Assembly (NCBI GenBank): GCA_019187105.1
Contig: JABAQM010000001.1
Coordinates: 930,001 to 994,000 of the forward strand
Length of the DNA: 64,000 bases
Source: Fimbriimonadaceae bacterium
GTDB lineage: Bacteria > Armatimonadota > Fimbriimonadia > Fimbriimonadales > Fimbriimonadaceae
Direction: 5' to 3'
The notes below the pieces were generated by a model that was not told where the DNA came from, searched no databases, and saw only the letters and a program-made list of their open reading frames with translations. Below are positions 23,415 to 32,416 of the stretch, one piece after another; the first letter of the stretch is position 1; every line of letters starts with the position of its first letter. The translations under genes and the position numbers were made by a program.

Positions 23415-25339
23415 CCACGGGCACTCAATGGGAAATCTCGGACCTGGCAAAAGAATGGGGCATCCTCCCCGGCCAGATCATCGGAGTGCTCTCCGACCTC
23501 GGCCTTGAAACGGACGGGGTGATGTTCGAAGCCGACGAGGAGACGCTTGCCCTCATCCAGGAGGCAGCCGAATCCTACAAGGGCTCGAAAGTCCTTCCCC
23601 TGCTGCCCAACCGTACGCCGAGGGACATCGCCCATGCATTGGGAGTTCCCCAGCCTCAGGTTCAAAAGGACCTCATGACCAAGCTAAAGGTCATGGCCAC
23701 CCTGACCACCACCCTCAAGCCGGAGGTGGCCGAGAAGCTCGTCGAGCTCCAAGGCTATGAGGTCAAATGGCTTGAGCCGAGCGCACCGAAGCCTGCTGCG
23801 CGGGCCGCCGCCAAAGCAAAGAGTGCGACAGGCGCTCAAACCCGGCCGCCGGTCGTTACCATTCTCGGTCACGTCGACCACGGCAAGACCTCGCTTCTGG
23901 ACTACATCCGGAAGGCCAATGTCGCATCCGGAGAAGCCGGTGGCATCACCCAGCATATCGGCGCTTATCAAGTCCAGCTGCCGGAAGGGACCATCACCTT
24001 CCTCGACACCCCGGGCCACGCGGCATTCACTGCGATGCGTGCGCGAGGCGCCCAGGTCACCGACATCGCGATTTTGGTGGTCGCCGCCGATGACGGCATC
24101 ATGCCTCAGACTATCGAGGCGATCAACCACGTCAAAAACGCCAATGTCCCGCTGATCGTCGCCGTCAACAAGATCGACAAGCCTGACGCCAATCCCGACC
24201 GGGTGCTAACCCAACTCCCCGAACATGGCGTCATCCCCGAGGCATACGGCGGCCAGGTCATCACCTGCCCCGTCTCGGCGATCACCGGCGAGGGCGTTCC
24301 CCAGCTGCTGGAGATGATCCTTCTCCAGGCAGAGGTCATGCAGCTCACCGCGGATCCGAAAGGCGATTGCGAGGGCATCGTCATCGAAGCAAAGCTGGAA
24401 AAGGGGCGCGGCCCCGTTGCTACGATTCTCGTTCAGCAGGGCACATTGGAAATCGGCGATATCGCCGTGGTCGGCACGACCTGGGGCCGCATGAAGGCAA
24501 TGACCGACTACCGCGGCGAACGGATGAAAGAGGCCGGCCCTTCCATGCCGGTGGAAATCCTCGGTCTCAACGAGGTCCCGCTTGCCGGCGACAAACTGGA
24601 AGTTATTCCGGACGAGCGGCAAGCTCGAACGACCGCCGAGGAGCGGGCTGCAGCCGATCGCCTCAGCAAACTCGCCGGCGACCGAAAGCGGGTGACCCTT
24701 ACCGACCTCCGGCGGAAAATCACGGAGGGCGAGACCAAGGACCTCAATCTTGTCGTCAAAGCCGATGTTCAAGGCTCAGTGGAAGCGGTGCGCGGGATGC
24801 TCGAAAAGCTTGAGCACGAAGAAGTCTCCGTGCATGTCATCCATAGTGGCGTCGGCACGATTACGGAAAGCGACATTCTCCTTGCCGGAGCGGCCGATGC
24901 GATCGTCGTCGGGTTCAATGTCCGTCCCGAGGGAGGGGCCAAGACGGCCGCCGAGCGGTCCAAGGTGGAAATCCGCACCTACACCATCATTTACGAGCTG
25001 ATCGAAGACATCGAGCTTGCCATCAAGGGCATGCTCGCGCCCAAGTTCGTTGAGGACTATCTGGGTCTGGTCGAGATCCGCGTCGTCTTCAACCTTTCAA
25101 GCAAGGGCAAGGTCGCCGGAAGCCACGTCGTCGACGGGAAGATCATCCGTGGATGCTCGTGCAGGGTCAAGCGGAACAAGGAAGTCGTCTGGGAAGGCAA
25201 GGTTGCCTCTCTGAAAAACGTCAAGCAGGACGCCAGAGAAATGTTTGCCGGGCAAGACTGCGGCATCCAGTTCGAAGGATGGACCGATTTCAAGGAAGGC
25301 GACGAGATCGAAGCCTTCGAAATGGTCCAGATCAACTAG
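23396..25339 (+). CDS. infB: translation initiation factor IF-2
   Basis: A 647-residue GTPase that places initiator tRNA on the 30S subunit. I place the start at TTG 23396 because AAGGAG lies 5 nt before it; the ATG at 23411 is in frame but 20 nt from that site. A short N-terminal region (no long linker) precedes the G domain: G1 GHVDHGKT at 158-165, G2 [10 protein letters not shown]3 DTPGH, G4 NKID, G5 SAITG. Domains II, III and the C-terminal fMet-tRNA-binding domain follow ([16 protein letters not shown]). Overlaps ylxR by 19 nt; rbfA and truB are not downstream. Its stop overlaps the convergent GH15 gene by 8 nt. Confidence 0.97.
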
Positions 25340-27191
25340 TCGCCGCTCGGTATTCCAGAATGGTCTGGACGAACTCGGCGTGCGACCACGTTAGCGGCGA
25401 CACGCTGAGCGGTTCACCCGTCTCCGGATGCAACTGCTCGGGAAGCATTCCTGTTGGACTGGCGTGCCGAACCGTCCAGTCGATCCAGCGCCTCGCTTCA
25501 TCCAATTCGCCGAACCTGATGGCTGCCTGGGCCACCCATAGCGTTGAGATAATCCAAGGATTGCCAGGATAGCCGTCGCTCTTTCGGAAGTAATAGTCGC
25601 CTTCATAGCGGGCAAAGCCTCCCACGGCCGAATGGACGCGGAGCGCCTTCCGGACGGCCTCGTAACTCGACCGCAGCAAGTCGCTGTGGTTGCCTCGAAA
25701 GACGTGAAGTAGGCCAACCACCAAGGTGGAGGCGTCGATCGTTCGGTCTGGACTGCCGTCTGCCGCCAGCCGTCTATAAAAACAACCCCGATCCGGATCC
25801 CAAAGGCGCGTGGCAAGGCCATCCTCGATCTCATTGGCCGCTTCCAACCAGGCTGCACGGGGCTCTTGTCCGACCGCTTCCGCCATCTGGCACGCGGACC
25901 GCAGGCCGGCAATCACCGCAGCAACGGTGAAGGTGTGAACACCGCGACGCTCTTCCCACAAATCGTAGCTGGGGAGCGGGAGGCCGGTCTCGGGATCACG
26001 ATAGGCCACCAAGTGGTCCGCCATTGGGCAAACCAGGTCCTGGAACAGGAGGTCAAGCTCGGGGTCGTCGGGAAGGAGTTTGGCGTGTTCGCCGAGTGCA
26101 TGAATCATCAGTGCCGATTCATCCTGCTGAAAAGGAACCTCTGCCTTCCCATCGACGATCCACGGATGCCAGGTCGCCCCCCAGGCGCCGTCGGCATGAT
26201 ACTTTTGCAGGAGAAACGGCTGATCGTCTCGGATGAGGCTCCGGCAAAGATTGAAGAATTTTCGCGAGTAATCGCTTCTTCCGGTTCGATCCAGCACCAG
26301 CGCGACGAACGATCCGTCCCGTGGCCACATGTAGGCGTAATTGGCCCGGTTCGTTTCCATAATGTCGGAATCAATCGCGGCCATCACCGCACCGCCCGAG
26401 TCAATGTGGGCCCGAAGCATGCTGAGGCTCAGGTCAAACATCCTGTCGAGAGGCTCCTGGCCGCTCGGGTCGTGCCAAGGGATGAATTCGGTACCGTTCC
26501 GCGGCTCGACAACGGCAGGAAGGTCAGGCGCCGCCGTCAAGATCCATCGAAACGACGATGAAGCACGCGCCGGAACCCGAACTGTCCATCCACAGGTGCT
26601 GTCTACCGATCCCTGTGCAATCGGGTTCATACTCAGTTGGCCATCCTCCGCGTCCCGCCAGGTGCCCTCGAGGCCACCAAAGCCCTTGATTCCGCACGCC
26701 CACTGGTCCAGTTCAATCCCTTCGCCTTCGATGTGGATCCGCAGATAGACCCTGTCTTTGTAGTGGATCAAGCTGTGTGAGGCGGCATGGTAAAAGCTGG
26801 TGTCGCCGATGTCGGTTTCATTGATGCGAAAGTCGTGGGAGCTGAAAAAGCGCAGCTCGCGATCCTCCGAACCATCGTTCTGGATCGTCACCATTCGAAT
26901 AAACCGATCGTCGCCGGGCTCGATCCACTCGTCGATCGTTACGGTCAGTCCAATTTGCTCGCTGGTCCAAGATTGCCGCCCGACCCTGGCGTCGCTGCCG
27001 TAAGCCTGATTGCGGTCGGCGACCTGGTCGGCCCACTGAAAGCGTCCTTCAATCCAGTAACCGAACTTGATGGCATGCCCGGAAAGGTGATTCCACTGGC
27101 CGATGCGAGGGTAGAAAAGGTCCCTGATCCGACCGCGTTCATCAAACGCGACCAGCAAGCGGCCGTTGGAATACACCAGCGATCGAGGCAT
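25332..27191 (-). CDS. glycoside hydrolase family 15 protein (glucoamylase/trehalase type)
   Basis: A 619-residue GH15 enzyme without signal peptide, so cytoplasmic. The N-terminal beta-sandwich (1-230, GRLLVAFDERGRIRDLFYPRIG) is followed by the (alpha/alpha)6 barrel, with NRANYAYMWPRDGSF, the QQDESALMIHAL segment, and LPSYDLWEERRGVHTFT, which holds a probable catalytic Glu, and a C-terminal SPLTWSHAEFV. These residues are those used to hydrolyse terminal alpha-glucosidic bonds; substrate could be glycogen oligosaccharides or trehalose. It is 6 nt downstream of the esterase gene on the same strand, so they form an operon read from the promoter at 27998. Confidence 0.92.
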   Translation of the reverse strand: MPRSLVYSNGRLLVAFDERGRIRDLFYPRIGQWNHLSGHAIKFGYWIEGRFQWADQVADRNQAYGSDARVGRQSWTSEQIGLTVTIDEWIEPGDDRFIRMVTIQNDGSEDRELRFFSSHDFRINETDIGDTSFYHAASHSLIHYKDRVYLRIHIEGEGIELDQWACGIKGFGGLEGTWRDAEDGQLSMNPIAQGSVDSTCGWTVRVPARASSSFRWILTAAPDLPAVVEPRNGTEFIPWHDPSGQEPLDRMFDLSLSMLRAHIDSGGAVMAAIDSDIMETNRANYAYMWPRDGSFVALVLDRTGRSDYSRKFFNLCRSLIRDDQPFLLQKYHADGAWGATWHPWIVDGKAEVPFQQDESALMIHALGEHAKLLPDDPELDLLFQDLVCPMADHLVAYRDPETGLPLPSYDLWEERRGVHTFTVAAVIAGLRSACQMAEAVGQEPRAAWLEAANEIEDGLATRLWDPDRGCFYRRLAADGSPDRTIDASTLVVGLLHVFRGNHSDLLRSSYEAVRKALRVHSAVGGFARYEGDYYFRKSDGYPGNPWIISTLWVAQAAIRFGELDEARRWIDWTVRHASPTGMLPEQLHPETGEPLSVSPLTWSHAEFVQTILEYRAATS

Positions 27192-27197
27192 TACTGG

Positions 27198-27989
27198 CTA
27201 GGCCGGAGCTCCTACCGAATCGCCAACCCAGTTGAGATAGAGACTTCGAATGCGGAACCAGCCTTCCAGGGAGAAGCTGTGCATTTCACCGTGCAGAACC
27301 TCCAGAGCCGTCTGGGCTCCAGCCGTGGTCAAGGCCTCCGCCAATCGCTGGCTTTGCTCCACGGGCACGACGTCATCTTCATCCCCATGGATGATCAACA
27401 GAGGCGATGCCGTGCCTGATACGTGATGAAGGGGCGATGCCTGGTGCCAGAGCAGCTCATGCCCTTCAAAGGGACACGCCATGAACTGCTCCAGGAACGA
27501 CCAGGCAATCGGTAAGTGCTGCCCGCGGGGATCGGTGAGGTCGGTTATCGGACTAATCGCAACCGCCGTATCCGCCTTGGGAGAAAACCCTCCAAGGTCG
27601 AGCTTCGGATCGAGCGGATGATCAAGCAGAGCCGTCATGGCCGCCAGGTGCCCGCCCGCCGAGTTGCCAATCACCGCGACGCAAGTGGGGTCGATTGCCA
27701 AACTCGACGATTCGCGGCGAGCGTAAGCGACCATCGTCTGCACATCGGAGACTGCGGCCGGAAACGGATGAAGCGGCGCAAGCCGATAGGATGGGCAGGC
27801 GCACGCATAGCCCTTCTCTGCCAGCCAGATCGCCTCGTCGCGGAACATCGTGCGATCGCCGCTGATCCACCCGCCGCCGTGAACGAACACCACGAGTGGC
27901 AGCGTTTCGTCATGGTCTGGCCGGAAGAAGTCGAACTCAAGTTCCGACGGTCCGGTCTCGTGATAAGGAATGCCGTACTGTGCCCTCAC
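27198..27989 (-). CDS. alpha/beta hydrolase (HSL/BD-FAE-type esterase)
   Basis: A 263-residue cytoplasmic hydrolase. Oxyanion motif VFVHGGGWISGDR near residue 35, nucleophile elbow GNSAGGH near 108 (Ser), an Asp in IHGDEDDVVPVEQSQ near 212, and the terminal His of GEMHSF near 245, so the catalytic triad is complete. It resembles acyl esterases acting on small esters; natural substrate unknown. The GTG start at 27989 is 8 nt behind a minus-strand TATAAT, without a Shine-Dalgarno, so it is close to leaderless. Operon with the GH15 gene. Confidence 0.88.
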   Translation of the reverse strand: MRAQYGIPYHETGPSELEFDFFRPDHDETLPLVVFVHGGGWISGDRTMFRDEAIWLAEKGYACACPSYRLAPLHPFPAAVSDVQTMVAYARRESSSLAIDPTCVAVIGNSAGGHLAAMTALLDHPLDPKLDLGGFSPKADTAVAISPITDLTDPRGQHLPIAWSFLEQFMACPFEGHELLWHQASPLHHVSGTASPLLIIHGDEDDVVPVEQSQRLAEALTTAGAQTALEVLHGEMHSFSLEGWFRIRSLYLNWVGDSVGAPA

Positions 27990-27997
27990 TCGTCGCT

Positions 27998-28005
27998 ATT
28001 ATAAT
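27998..28005. promoter_or_regulatory. palindromic bidirectional -10 element
   Basis: ATTATAAT is its own reverse complement and contains TATAAT on both strands (plus 28000-28005, minus 27998-28003). The plus copy is 7 nt before the GTG of the oxidoreductase at 28013, the minus copy 8 nt before the GTG of the esterase at 27989. It can serve both genes; no strong -35 is visible on either side. Confidence 0.7.
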
Positions 28006-28012
28006 TGGCCTG

Positions 28013-29041
28013 GTGGCAAAGTGGCGCGCAATTCTCGTCGGGGCAGGCGCCATGGGCAAGGGTTGGGGCCGCCTCTTATCCAATCATGACCGCGTCACCC
28101 TTGCCGCCTGGGTCGACCCGGACCGGGCGGCCCTTGAAGAGTCGCTGCGACAAGTCCAATCGACCGGCACCGAGCCATTGAGTCACCTCCGCGAGGCGAT
28201 CCAGGCCGGAGTCGGCGACTTCGTGGTCGATGTCACCCCGCCCGATGTCCACGAATCCATTGCGGTCGAGGCTATGGAATTCGGGCTCCCCGTCTTGGGC
28301 GAGAAGCCGCTGGCAAACAGCATGGAATCGGCTGCGCGCATCGTTGCCTGCAGCCAACGAACGGGCGTGCTCCACGCGGTCAGCCAGAACCGCCGCTATA
28401 ACCGGGGCCTGCACCAATTCCGCGACTGCGTCCGACAAATCGGACCGCCCCAGATTCTCGCCGCCGATTTCTTCATCGGTCCCCACTTTGGCGGCTTCAG
28501 AGATGAGATGGAAAGCCCCTTGCTGCTCGACATGGCCATCCACACCTTCGACGCCGCCAGATTCATCCTGAAGGAAGACGCCACCACCGTCTTGTGCGAA
28601 GAATTCAATCCGGCCGGAAGCTGGTACCGGGGCAACGCCTGCGCGACGGCGTCTTTCCGCTTCGAGTCCGGGGCTCGCTTCCTTTTCCGCGGCTCATGGT
28701 GTGCGGAGGGCCTACCCACGAGCTGGGACTCGGAGTGGCGCTGCGTGTGCCAGGGGGGCAGTGCGAAATGGAACGGCAACGAAGCGCCGAGCGGTGAGCG
28801 GGTGATCGACCAAGAGGGCTTCCTTCATTCGGTGGAGCCGGTCGAGCCAGACGAAGTATCGGTCACCGAGTGGATCGCAGGACCGCTCGCCGATTTCTTG
28901 AAATTCCTCGAAGGTGGCCCCAAGCCGCCGACCCATTGCGAGGACAATTTGAAAAGCCTGGCCATGGTGTTTGCCGCTCAGCGCTCGGCAAAGGAGGGCC
29001 GCCCTGTGGCGCTCGCCGAGGTCATGCCGCCGTGCGACTGA
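28013..29041 (+). CDS. Gfo/Idh/MocA family oxidoreductase
   Basis: A 342-residue NAD(P)-dependent dehydrogenase. Rossmann motif ILVGAGAMGKGWG at 5-17, GEKPLANSMESAARIV near 96-111 with the family's Lys, and LLLDMAIHTFDAARFI in the C-terminal domain with the conserved Asp and His. The GTG at 28013 is chosen because the Rossmann fold begins there and the -10 TATAAT lies 7 nt before. The next gene begins 10 nt before this one ends, so they form an operon. Substrate probably a sugar or cyclitol; not determinable. Confidence 0.88.
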   Translation: MAKWRAILVGAGAMGKGWGRLLSNHDRVTLAAWVDPDRAALEESLRQVQSTGTEPLSHLREAIQAGVGDFVVDVTPPDVHESIAVEAMEFGLPVLGEKPLANSMESAARIVACSQRTGVLHAVSQNRRYNRGLHQFRDCVRQIGPPQILAADFFIGPHFGGFRDEMESPLLLDMAIHTFDAARFILKEDATTVLCEEFNPAGSWYRGNACATASFRFESGARFLFRGSWCAEGLPTSWDSEWRCVCQGGSAKWNGNEAPSGERVIDQEGFLHSVEPVEPDEVSVTEWIAGPLADFLKFLEGGPKPPTHCEDNLKSLAMVFAAQRSAKEGRPVALAEVMPPCD

Positions 29042-30757: not shown

Positions 30758-32416
30758 ATGGACGACCCCCGACGGCCCGAGACGATCGAGCTCATCGAGC
30801 GCCTCGCCGCCGAAATCCCCGCCGACCGCGCCAAGGCTCAGATCTATCTGACCGCACTCAAGGACGCGATCGAACGCGACACGCTGCGGCAGGAAGAGCG
30901 GGAGCGGCTCATGAGGGAATACGAGGAAGCCTACGAAAAGCTGACCGCGCCCGCAAACCGCATCGGCATCTTCTTGCGCTGGCTCGAAAACCAGCGGGCG
31001 GTCGTCGCCCTCGGCGATACCGAGTACGTGGCAATGGTAGACCCCGCCATCAAGCCCGAGGATCTTCTCACCGGGTCGCGCGTGCTTTTCAACGAAGCCT
31101 ACGCCGTCATCGGCGTCATGCCCGCCCACGAAGGCGGAGCGCTGGTCAAGGTATCGGAAGCCCTTGAGGACGGCCGGCTGAGGGTGGGCAGCGATCCCCA
31201 GAACCAGATGGGACGAATCGTCCATCGTGCCGATCACCTGGCGGGAGCAACGATCAAGAAGGGCGACGAGGTCCGCGTCGAGCCGTTCGGGAAGCTCGCC
31301 GTCGAACACTTCCCGGGCCAGGACGTGCAGGACTACTTCGTCGAGGAAGTCCCCGAGGTGCCGTGGAGCGCGATCGGCGGCCAGGAGGACGCCATCGCAT
31401 TGATCCGCGACACGATCGAGCACCCTCTCCTCTATCCCGAGCTGTACGAGAAGTTCGATAAGAAGCCGGTCAAGGGCATTCTGCTTTACGGCCCTCCCGG
31501 CTGCGGCAAAACCCTGATCGGAAAGGCCACCGCCTATAACCTCGCCCAAGAGTATTCACTTCGGGTAGGTCACGAAGTCAAAGAGTATTTCATGCATATT
31601 TCCGGGCCAAAGATTCTCAATATGTGGCTCGGCGAAACCGAGCGCATGGTCCGGGAGATTTTCGAAATCGCCCGGCAGCGGGCCAAAGAGGGCCGCCTGG
31701 TCGTGATCTTCATGGACGAAGCCGAATCCGTGCTTCGCACTCGCTCGAGCGGGCGCTGGCTCAACATCAGCAACACGGTGGTACCGCAGTTCTGTGCTGA
31801 GCTCGACGGTATGGTCAGCCTCGACAATGTCGTCCTGATTCTCACTTCGAACCGGCCCGATTACATCGACCCTGCCGTCCTCCGCCCCGAGCGCATCGAC
31901 CGCAAGGTCAAGGTTCGCCGCCCGGATCGCGAATCGAGCCGGACGATCTTCTCGATCTATCTACACGACCGCCTGCCGATTGATCCCGACCTGCTTCGCC
32001 AAGAGGACGACGAACCGTCCTGTGCAAGGAAGGCGCTGATCGAAACGGCGACGGCCTACCTCTTCCAGAAAACCAAGGACACGGAGTTTCTGCACCTGAC
32101 CCTTCGCAATGGTCAGACTCAGGTTCTCTACTGGGGAGACCTCGTCAGTGGCGCCCTGATCAAGTCGGTCGTTGACCGGGCCAAGGACATTGCCATCCGC
32201 CGGGCGATTGCCAAACCCGATACCGTCCACGGTCTCCGGATCGCCGACCTTGAGGAGGCGATTGCCGCCGAATACCGTGAGAACGAGATCTTCCCCAAAT
32301 CGGACGTCGTCGACGACTGGCTCAAGCTGATCGACGTCGAGCCCGAGAATGTGGTGGCGGTACGACCGGTCACCCAGTCCGGTGGCAAGCGCTACGAGCG
32401 CTCGCCCATCATCTAA
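30758..32416 (+). CDS. proteasomal-type AAA ATPase (ARC/Mpa family)
   Basis: A 552-residue AAA unfoldase. An N-terminal coiled coil (about 10-65) is followed by two OB-type domains (70-190), as in mycobacterial Mpa and Rhodococcus ARC. The AAA domain begins EVPWSAIGGQEDAI; Walker A GPPGCGKT is at 245-252, Walker B IFMDEAES with Asp320-Glu321, then SRHs and TSNRPDYIDPAVLRPERIDR. The pore-loop position reads MWLGE, so Trp-Leu-Gly where Mpa has Tyr-Val-Gly. The C-terminus ends RYERSPII and lacks the GQYL tail that Mpa inserts into the 20S core. No pup, dop, pafA or prcBA lies nearby. Overlaps the TPR gene by 8 nt. Confidence 0.9.
   Translation: MDDPRRPETIELIERLAAEIPADRAKAQIYLTALKDAIERDTLRQEERERLMREYEEAYEKLTAPANRIGIFLRWLENQRAVVALGDTEYVAMVDPAIKPEDLLTGSRVLFNEAYAVIGVMPAHEGGALVKVSEALEDGRLRVGSDPQNQMGRIVHRADHLAGATIKKGDEVRVEPFGKLAVEHFPGQDVQDYFVEEVPEVPWSAIGGQEDAIALIRDTIEHPLLYPELYEKFDKKPVKGILLYGPPGCGKTLIGKATAYNLAQEYSLRVGHEVKEYFMHISGPKILNMWLGETERMVREIFEIARQRAKEGRLVVIFMDEAESVLRTRSSGRWLNISNTVVPQFCAELDGMVSLDNVVLILTSNRPDYIDPAVLRPERIDRKVKVRRPDRESSRTIFSIYLHDRLPIDPDLLRQEDDEPSCARKALIETATAYLFQKTKDTEFLHLTLRNGQTQVLYWGDLVSGALIKSVVDRAKDIAIRRAIAKPDTVHGLRIADLEEAIAAEYRENEIFPKSDVVDDWLKLIDVEPENVVAVRPVTQSGGKRYERSPII

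Follow-up and report, generated by a model that had tools for sequence, protein, structure and literature searches.

Can one -10 box serve two divergent genes, both of which would be transcribed with little or no leader? The question is raised by a 23-bp interval (27990-28012) that separates the start codons of an esterase-like gene and an oxidoreductase gene in the window, meaning the whole 64,000-nucleotide stretch of a Fimbriimonadaceae genome that was analysed. The features concerned are as follows.

27198..27989, minus strand: alpha/beta hydrolase, BD-FAE / Abhydrolase_3 (esterase-like), GTG start (Pfam PF20434, E 3.5e-43; orthologs)
28013..29041, plus strand: Gfo/Idh/MocA family oxidoreductase, GTG start (Pfam PF01408, E 1.1e-12, and PF02894; ortholog N-termini)
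27998..28005, common to both directions: palindromic box ATTATAAT, 8 bp, perfect (direct reading)
28000..28005, plus strand: putative -10 element TATAAT of the oxidoreductase gene, 7 nt before GTG 28013-28015 (TANNNT excess 6-9 nt before starts)
27998..28003, minus strand: putative -10 element TATAAT of the esterase gene, 8 nt before GTG 27989-27987
27980..28012, plus strand: 11 further codons that the oxidoreductase would gain by starting at GTG 27980, unlikely; AAGGA 10 nt upstream

The shared box and its geometry

Read directly, positions 27987-28015 consist of CAC, TCGTCGCT, ATTATAAT, TGGCCTG and GTG (in full, CACTCGTCGCTATTATAATTGGCCTGGTG). A preliminary description of this DNA had reported TATAAT on both strands of ATTATAAT, 7 nt from the oxidoreductase GTG and 8 nt from the esterase GTG, with the two start codons 23 bp apart, and all of this proved exact to the base. 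The opposite-strand hexamers overlap by 4 bp (28000-28003) within ATTATAAT, which is the symmetric element expected of a bidirectional promoter; the T at -7 of each box, 28005 on the plus strand and 27998 on the minus strand, lies outside the other box. The gaps of 7 and 8 nt both lie within the range that defines a start-adjacent -10 box (TANNNT at about 5-9 nt from the start codon). Neither GTG is preceded by a Shine-Dalgarno sequence, the stretches between box and codon being merely TGGCCTG and AGCGACGA, and there is no recognisable match to a -35 element on either side of ATTATAAT, so that directionality would not be set by a -35. The T at -18 that is an accessory, not a defining, feature of bidirectional promoters is absent from the predicted -18 on both strands, and the predicted +1 is not clearly A on either strand.

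The symmetric -10 is probably a bidirectional promoter feeding two leaderless or nearly leaderless genes. Housekeeping RNA polymerase would bind ATTATAAT in either orientation, and each binding event would lead to a transcription start about 7 nt downstream, 0-2 nt from a GTG on both sides, so both mRNAs would be leaderless or nearly so. The starts are predicted at 28012-28013 on the plus strand and at 27991-27989 on the minus strand, with a start-to-start spacing of 21 bp if both lie at the optimal distance of 7 bp, or 21-24 bp if they fall nearer the codons. Activity in both directions, the exact transcription starts and leaderless translation from GUG are all predictions drawn from the sequence. 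The two polymerase orientations would alternate, simultaneous occupancy being excluded, and opposed polymerases at a bidirectional promoter are indeed sterically prevented from binding together (PMC12825309). The earlier suggestion of a single opened bubble for the two genes does not agree with this, since a bubble runs toward the start of one gene and opposed polymerases exclude each other (PMC12825309). The accompanying idea, that expression of the two genes would be tied or opposed, can be kept only conditionally: it depends on promoter strength, which is not given by sequence, and no measurable competition was seen at low basal activity in the E. coli cases tested (PMC12825309).

Assignment of the start codons

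The prediction depends on where the two proteins begin. The esterase ORF offers no start codon earlier than GTG 27989, the first one after a stop, and the esterase orthologs of two other genomes (L062 and G031) start within a few residues of its position. The oxidoreductase frame also has earlier starts, GTG 27980 and GTG 27896, but ortholog alignment placed residue 1 at GTG 28013, where the initiators of many orthologs align. Both start codons thus appear to be correctly assigned by alignment, proteomics being the stronger form of evidence. This reliance on alignment is what favours the explanation that the esterase or the oxidoreductase start lies elsewhere and one message has a normal leader, but with the esterase GTG being the earliest start after a stop, and with ortholog N-termini agreeing on both sides of the interval, that explanation is scarcely credible.

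The start at GTG 27980 was the choice of a crude codon-based gene caller; it was judged unlikely, the extension it would add being missing from the orthologs. It bears on the leading alternative, namely that the box is a -10 for one gene only, most likely the esterase, with the other direction silent or noise, and that oxidoreductase transcription begins at an upstream promoter within the esterase gene, with translation from either GTG 27980 or GTG 28013. TATAAT-type -10 elements are near-symmetric by nature (PMC10268837), and the codon-based caller favours GTG 27980, an in-frame codon preceded by AAGGA at 10 nt; against this, the ortholog N-termini fit GTG 28013 and not 27980.

Start-adjacent -10 boxes in the Fimbriimonadaceae

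Upstream boxes were counted with a simple gene caller over 864 kb of the host genome and, for three relatives, 400 kb each. Of the host's 443 first-in-unit genes, 82 had TANNNT at 5-9 nt from the start, whereas control distances gave 17 and 27 (Fisher p < 1e-8), and in the four genomes pooled it lay 6-9 nt before 184 of 1044 first-in-unit starts, against 30-35 at control distances. This excess, about five- to six-fold over background at 6-9 nt, indicates that start-adjacent -10 boxes are a normal mode of expression in the Fimbriimonadaceae (Armatimonadota). Within-operon genes, which were fewer, showed a weaker excess. Since 11 of the host's 82 boxed genes begin with GTG (the other 71 with ATG), a GTG start at the present locus is not exceptional. 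Together with the predicted leaders of 0-2 nt and the ortholog starts, this habit of the lineage upholds the earlier proposal that one palindromic -10 is positioned for two near-leaderless genes.

Boxes of the form TA-N3-C showed no overall enrichment in the four genomes (31, against 29-30 at control distances), which makes the TACAAC or TAAAAC found before some ortholog starts, L062's included, only suggestive. Among hexamers at 6-9 nt from first-in-unit starts, CATAAT showed the strongest enrichment, with 21 occurrences where the control distances predict about 0.5 (G000, G007, G062 and G018). CACAAT was likewise enriched before starts in this clade. Given the CATAAT enrichment, the clade may use a -10 variant with C at -12.

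Orthologs of the pair and the origin of the shared box

Of the esterase orthologs with at least 40% identity, about half carry TANNNT at 5-9 nt from the aligned start codon, mostly at 8-9 nt, and the motif is almost absent at other distances. Several Armatimonadota orthologs of the oxidoreductase have TACCCT, TACACT or TATCAT 6-8 nt before the start, while most of those from outside the Armatimonadota (Chloroflexi, Firmicutes) have a Shine-Dalgarno-like motif instead. The start-adjacent signal is thus stronger in the esterase orthologs than in those of the oxidoreductase, which would suit a box acting for the esterase gene alone, but the presence of such boxes before several Armatimonadota oxidoreductase genes argues the other way.

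The divergent esterase/oxidoreductase pair is retained in two other genomes, G031 and L062. In G031 (L004) the genes are 41 bp apart, and TATAAT precedes the esterase start with a gap of 8 nt and CACAAT the oxidoreductase start with a gap of 7 nt; these gaps are identical to those at the window pair, but the boxes are separate. That the oxidoreductase gene of G031 has a CACAAT box of its own, with this gap of 7 nt, is also evidence against a box for one gene only, and on balance that alternative is unlikely. In L062 the separation is 87 bp, and both starts have TACAAC at 6 nt. A third apparently syntenic pair (L071) was dropped, its match having 33% identity and being likely a paralog.

Deleting 18 bp between the boxes of G031 would give the overlapping arrangement found in the window, and with the same 8- and 7-nt spacings in both genomes, the shared box looks like a merger of two start-adjacent boxes. 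The shared-box form itself is not conserved, the relatives that keep the pair having two boxes, and the best ortholog has 53% identity.

Rarity and recurrence of the palindrome

The 3,307,380 bases of the host genome, with a G+C content of 59%, contain two copies of ATTATAAT, the other of which (C1:2904533) sits within an 814-aa ORF. A looser form, CAY-N6-9-ANTATANT-N6-9-RTG, matches once genome-wide in the host, at the present site. With the 8-mer found only twice in a 3.3-Mb genome, and its other copy in coding sequence, it is very unlikely that a random copy would be spaced so suitably between genuine starts of two divergent genes.

Across 113 Fimbriimonadales genomes there are 544 copies of ATTATAAT. 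Two 1.5-Mb genomes of the same family, G093 and G029, which appear to be AT-rich and reduced, account for 192 of these (110 and 82, respectively), against 0-10 in most relatives. Twelve copies in the 113 genomes have RTG 6-9 nt away on both sides. At six of these, the present locus included, both codons open ORFs of 90 aa or more, and the gene pairs are unrelated; the other six were set aside, one or both flanking ORFs being short. ORF length was the sole gene criterion for this count, and one of the six retained loci (L193) has an ambiguous start. Four of the six, and a seventh locus, are listed here.

G040: serine hydroxymethyltransferase / AraC-type regulator, shared ATTATAAT
G062: GAF-domain protein / SIS-domain protein, shared ATTATAAT
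G023: GNAT acetyltransferase / protein without Pfam match, shared ATTATAAT
G080: polysaccharide deacetylase / long ORF without Pfam match, shared ATTATAAT
G012 (L158, around 1501; the seventh locus): L-fucose isomerase / ThyX thymidylate synthase, apparently divergent from one ATTATAAT, gaps 6 and 5

A control palindrome of the same composition and similar frequency, TAATATTA, had eight start-flanked copies, and at none of them did the codons 6-9 nt away on either side both open ORFs of 90 aa or more. The difference from the control gave a Fisher p of 0.019 for six loci and 0.009 for seven, with the two AT-rich genomes left out. About five flanked copies of ATTATAAT are expected from base composition alone, and it is only the requirement for an ORF on both sides that separates signal from control; the recurrence statistics are supportive, not overwhelming.

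These counts bear on the explanation that ATTATAAT is no promoter element and its AT-rich palindrome is due to chance or has a structural role, for example as an operator. A perfect 8-bp palindrome would fit that description, but its spacing from the two starts (7 and 8 nt), the rarity of the sequence in the genome, the clade-wide TANNNT excess at exactly that distance and the recurrence at unrelated gene pairs make it very improbable.

The alternative overlap ATTATATAAT, in which the boxes overlap by 2 bp (the 23-bp class), had no match with start codons on both sides in the 113 genomes. Among the divergent pairs sampled, the usual compact form was two separate back-to-back boxes at 31-68 bp, and the window pair alone had overlapping boxes. 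Examples of the two-box form are L038:13008-13049 and L044:6446-6482 (host) and L271:10662-10694 (G018), where the starts are 32-41 bp apart and each has its own TANNNT at 6-8 nt.

Relation to known systems

As a probable bidirectional promoter, the box resembles those described by Warman, Grainger and colleagues, where one near-palindromic -10 is readable both ways and the starts flank the shared element (PMC12825309, PMC10268837). It differs from them in geometry: the known start spacings are 18, 10 and 23 bp, with small variations allowed (PMC12825309), whereas the 4-bp overlap of the boxes here predicts 21 bp (21-24). It also differs in its products, both of which are predicted leaderless mRNAs of enzymes; neither paper treats leaderless pairs, and the word 'leaderless' is absent from PMC12825309. 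In having TANNNT about 6-7 nt before the start without a Shine-Dalgarno sequence, the two genes are like leaderless genes of Deinococcus-Thermus (PMC12340547) and Actinobacteria (PMC3160421), but they belong to the Armatimonadota, which neither paper mentions, and have one box for two genes. On sequence evidence, start-adjacent -10 expression would thereby be extended from Deinococcus-Thermus and Actinobacteria to Armatimonadota.

That both products might be leaderless had been called striking. The arrangement is unusual, yet it has a precedent in the divergent genes Rv1129c and Rv1130 (prpD) of Mycobacterium tuberculosis, both of whose mRNAs were mapped as leaderless (PMC3898074); a single shared -10 is not stated in the available part of that source. 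Searches of the open-access literature found no published case in which two leaderless genes share one -10. Bidirectional promoters and leaderless genes are each established, and it is their compact combination that is unusual.

If both directions are active, this would be a near-smallest regulatory region for two divergent genes, with one -10 box and no leaders. It would also provide a clean natural test of how polymerase chooses its orientation, since neither a recognisable -35 nor a leader would complicate the interpretation, and a single-base change should affect one gene only. A wider proposal, offered tentatively and at slightly less than even confidence, is that in the Fimbriimonadales a single 8-bp palindrome lying between two start codons may form a recurrent, independently evolved minimal divergon of about 23 bp, comprising the promoter and the 5' end of two leaderless genes, which would arise by box merger and couple the genes through polymerase exclusion.

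Two neighbouring genes of the window may be mentioned. A GH15-type glycoside hydrolase gene (25332-27191) lies directly downstream of the esterase gene on the same strand and is possibly co-transcribed with it, and a 552-aa ORF at 30758-32416 resembles, by eye only, a proteasome-type AAA ATPase (ARC/Mpa-like).
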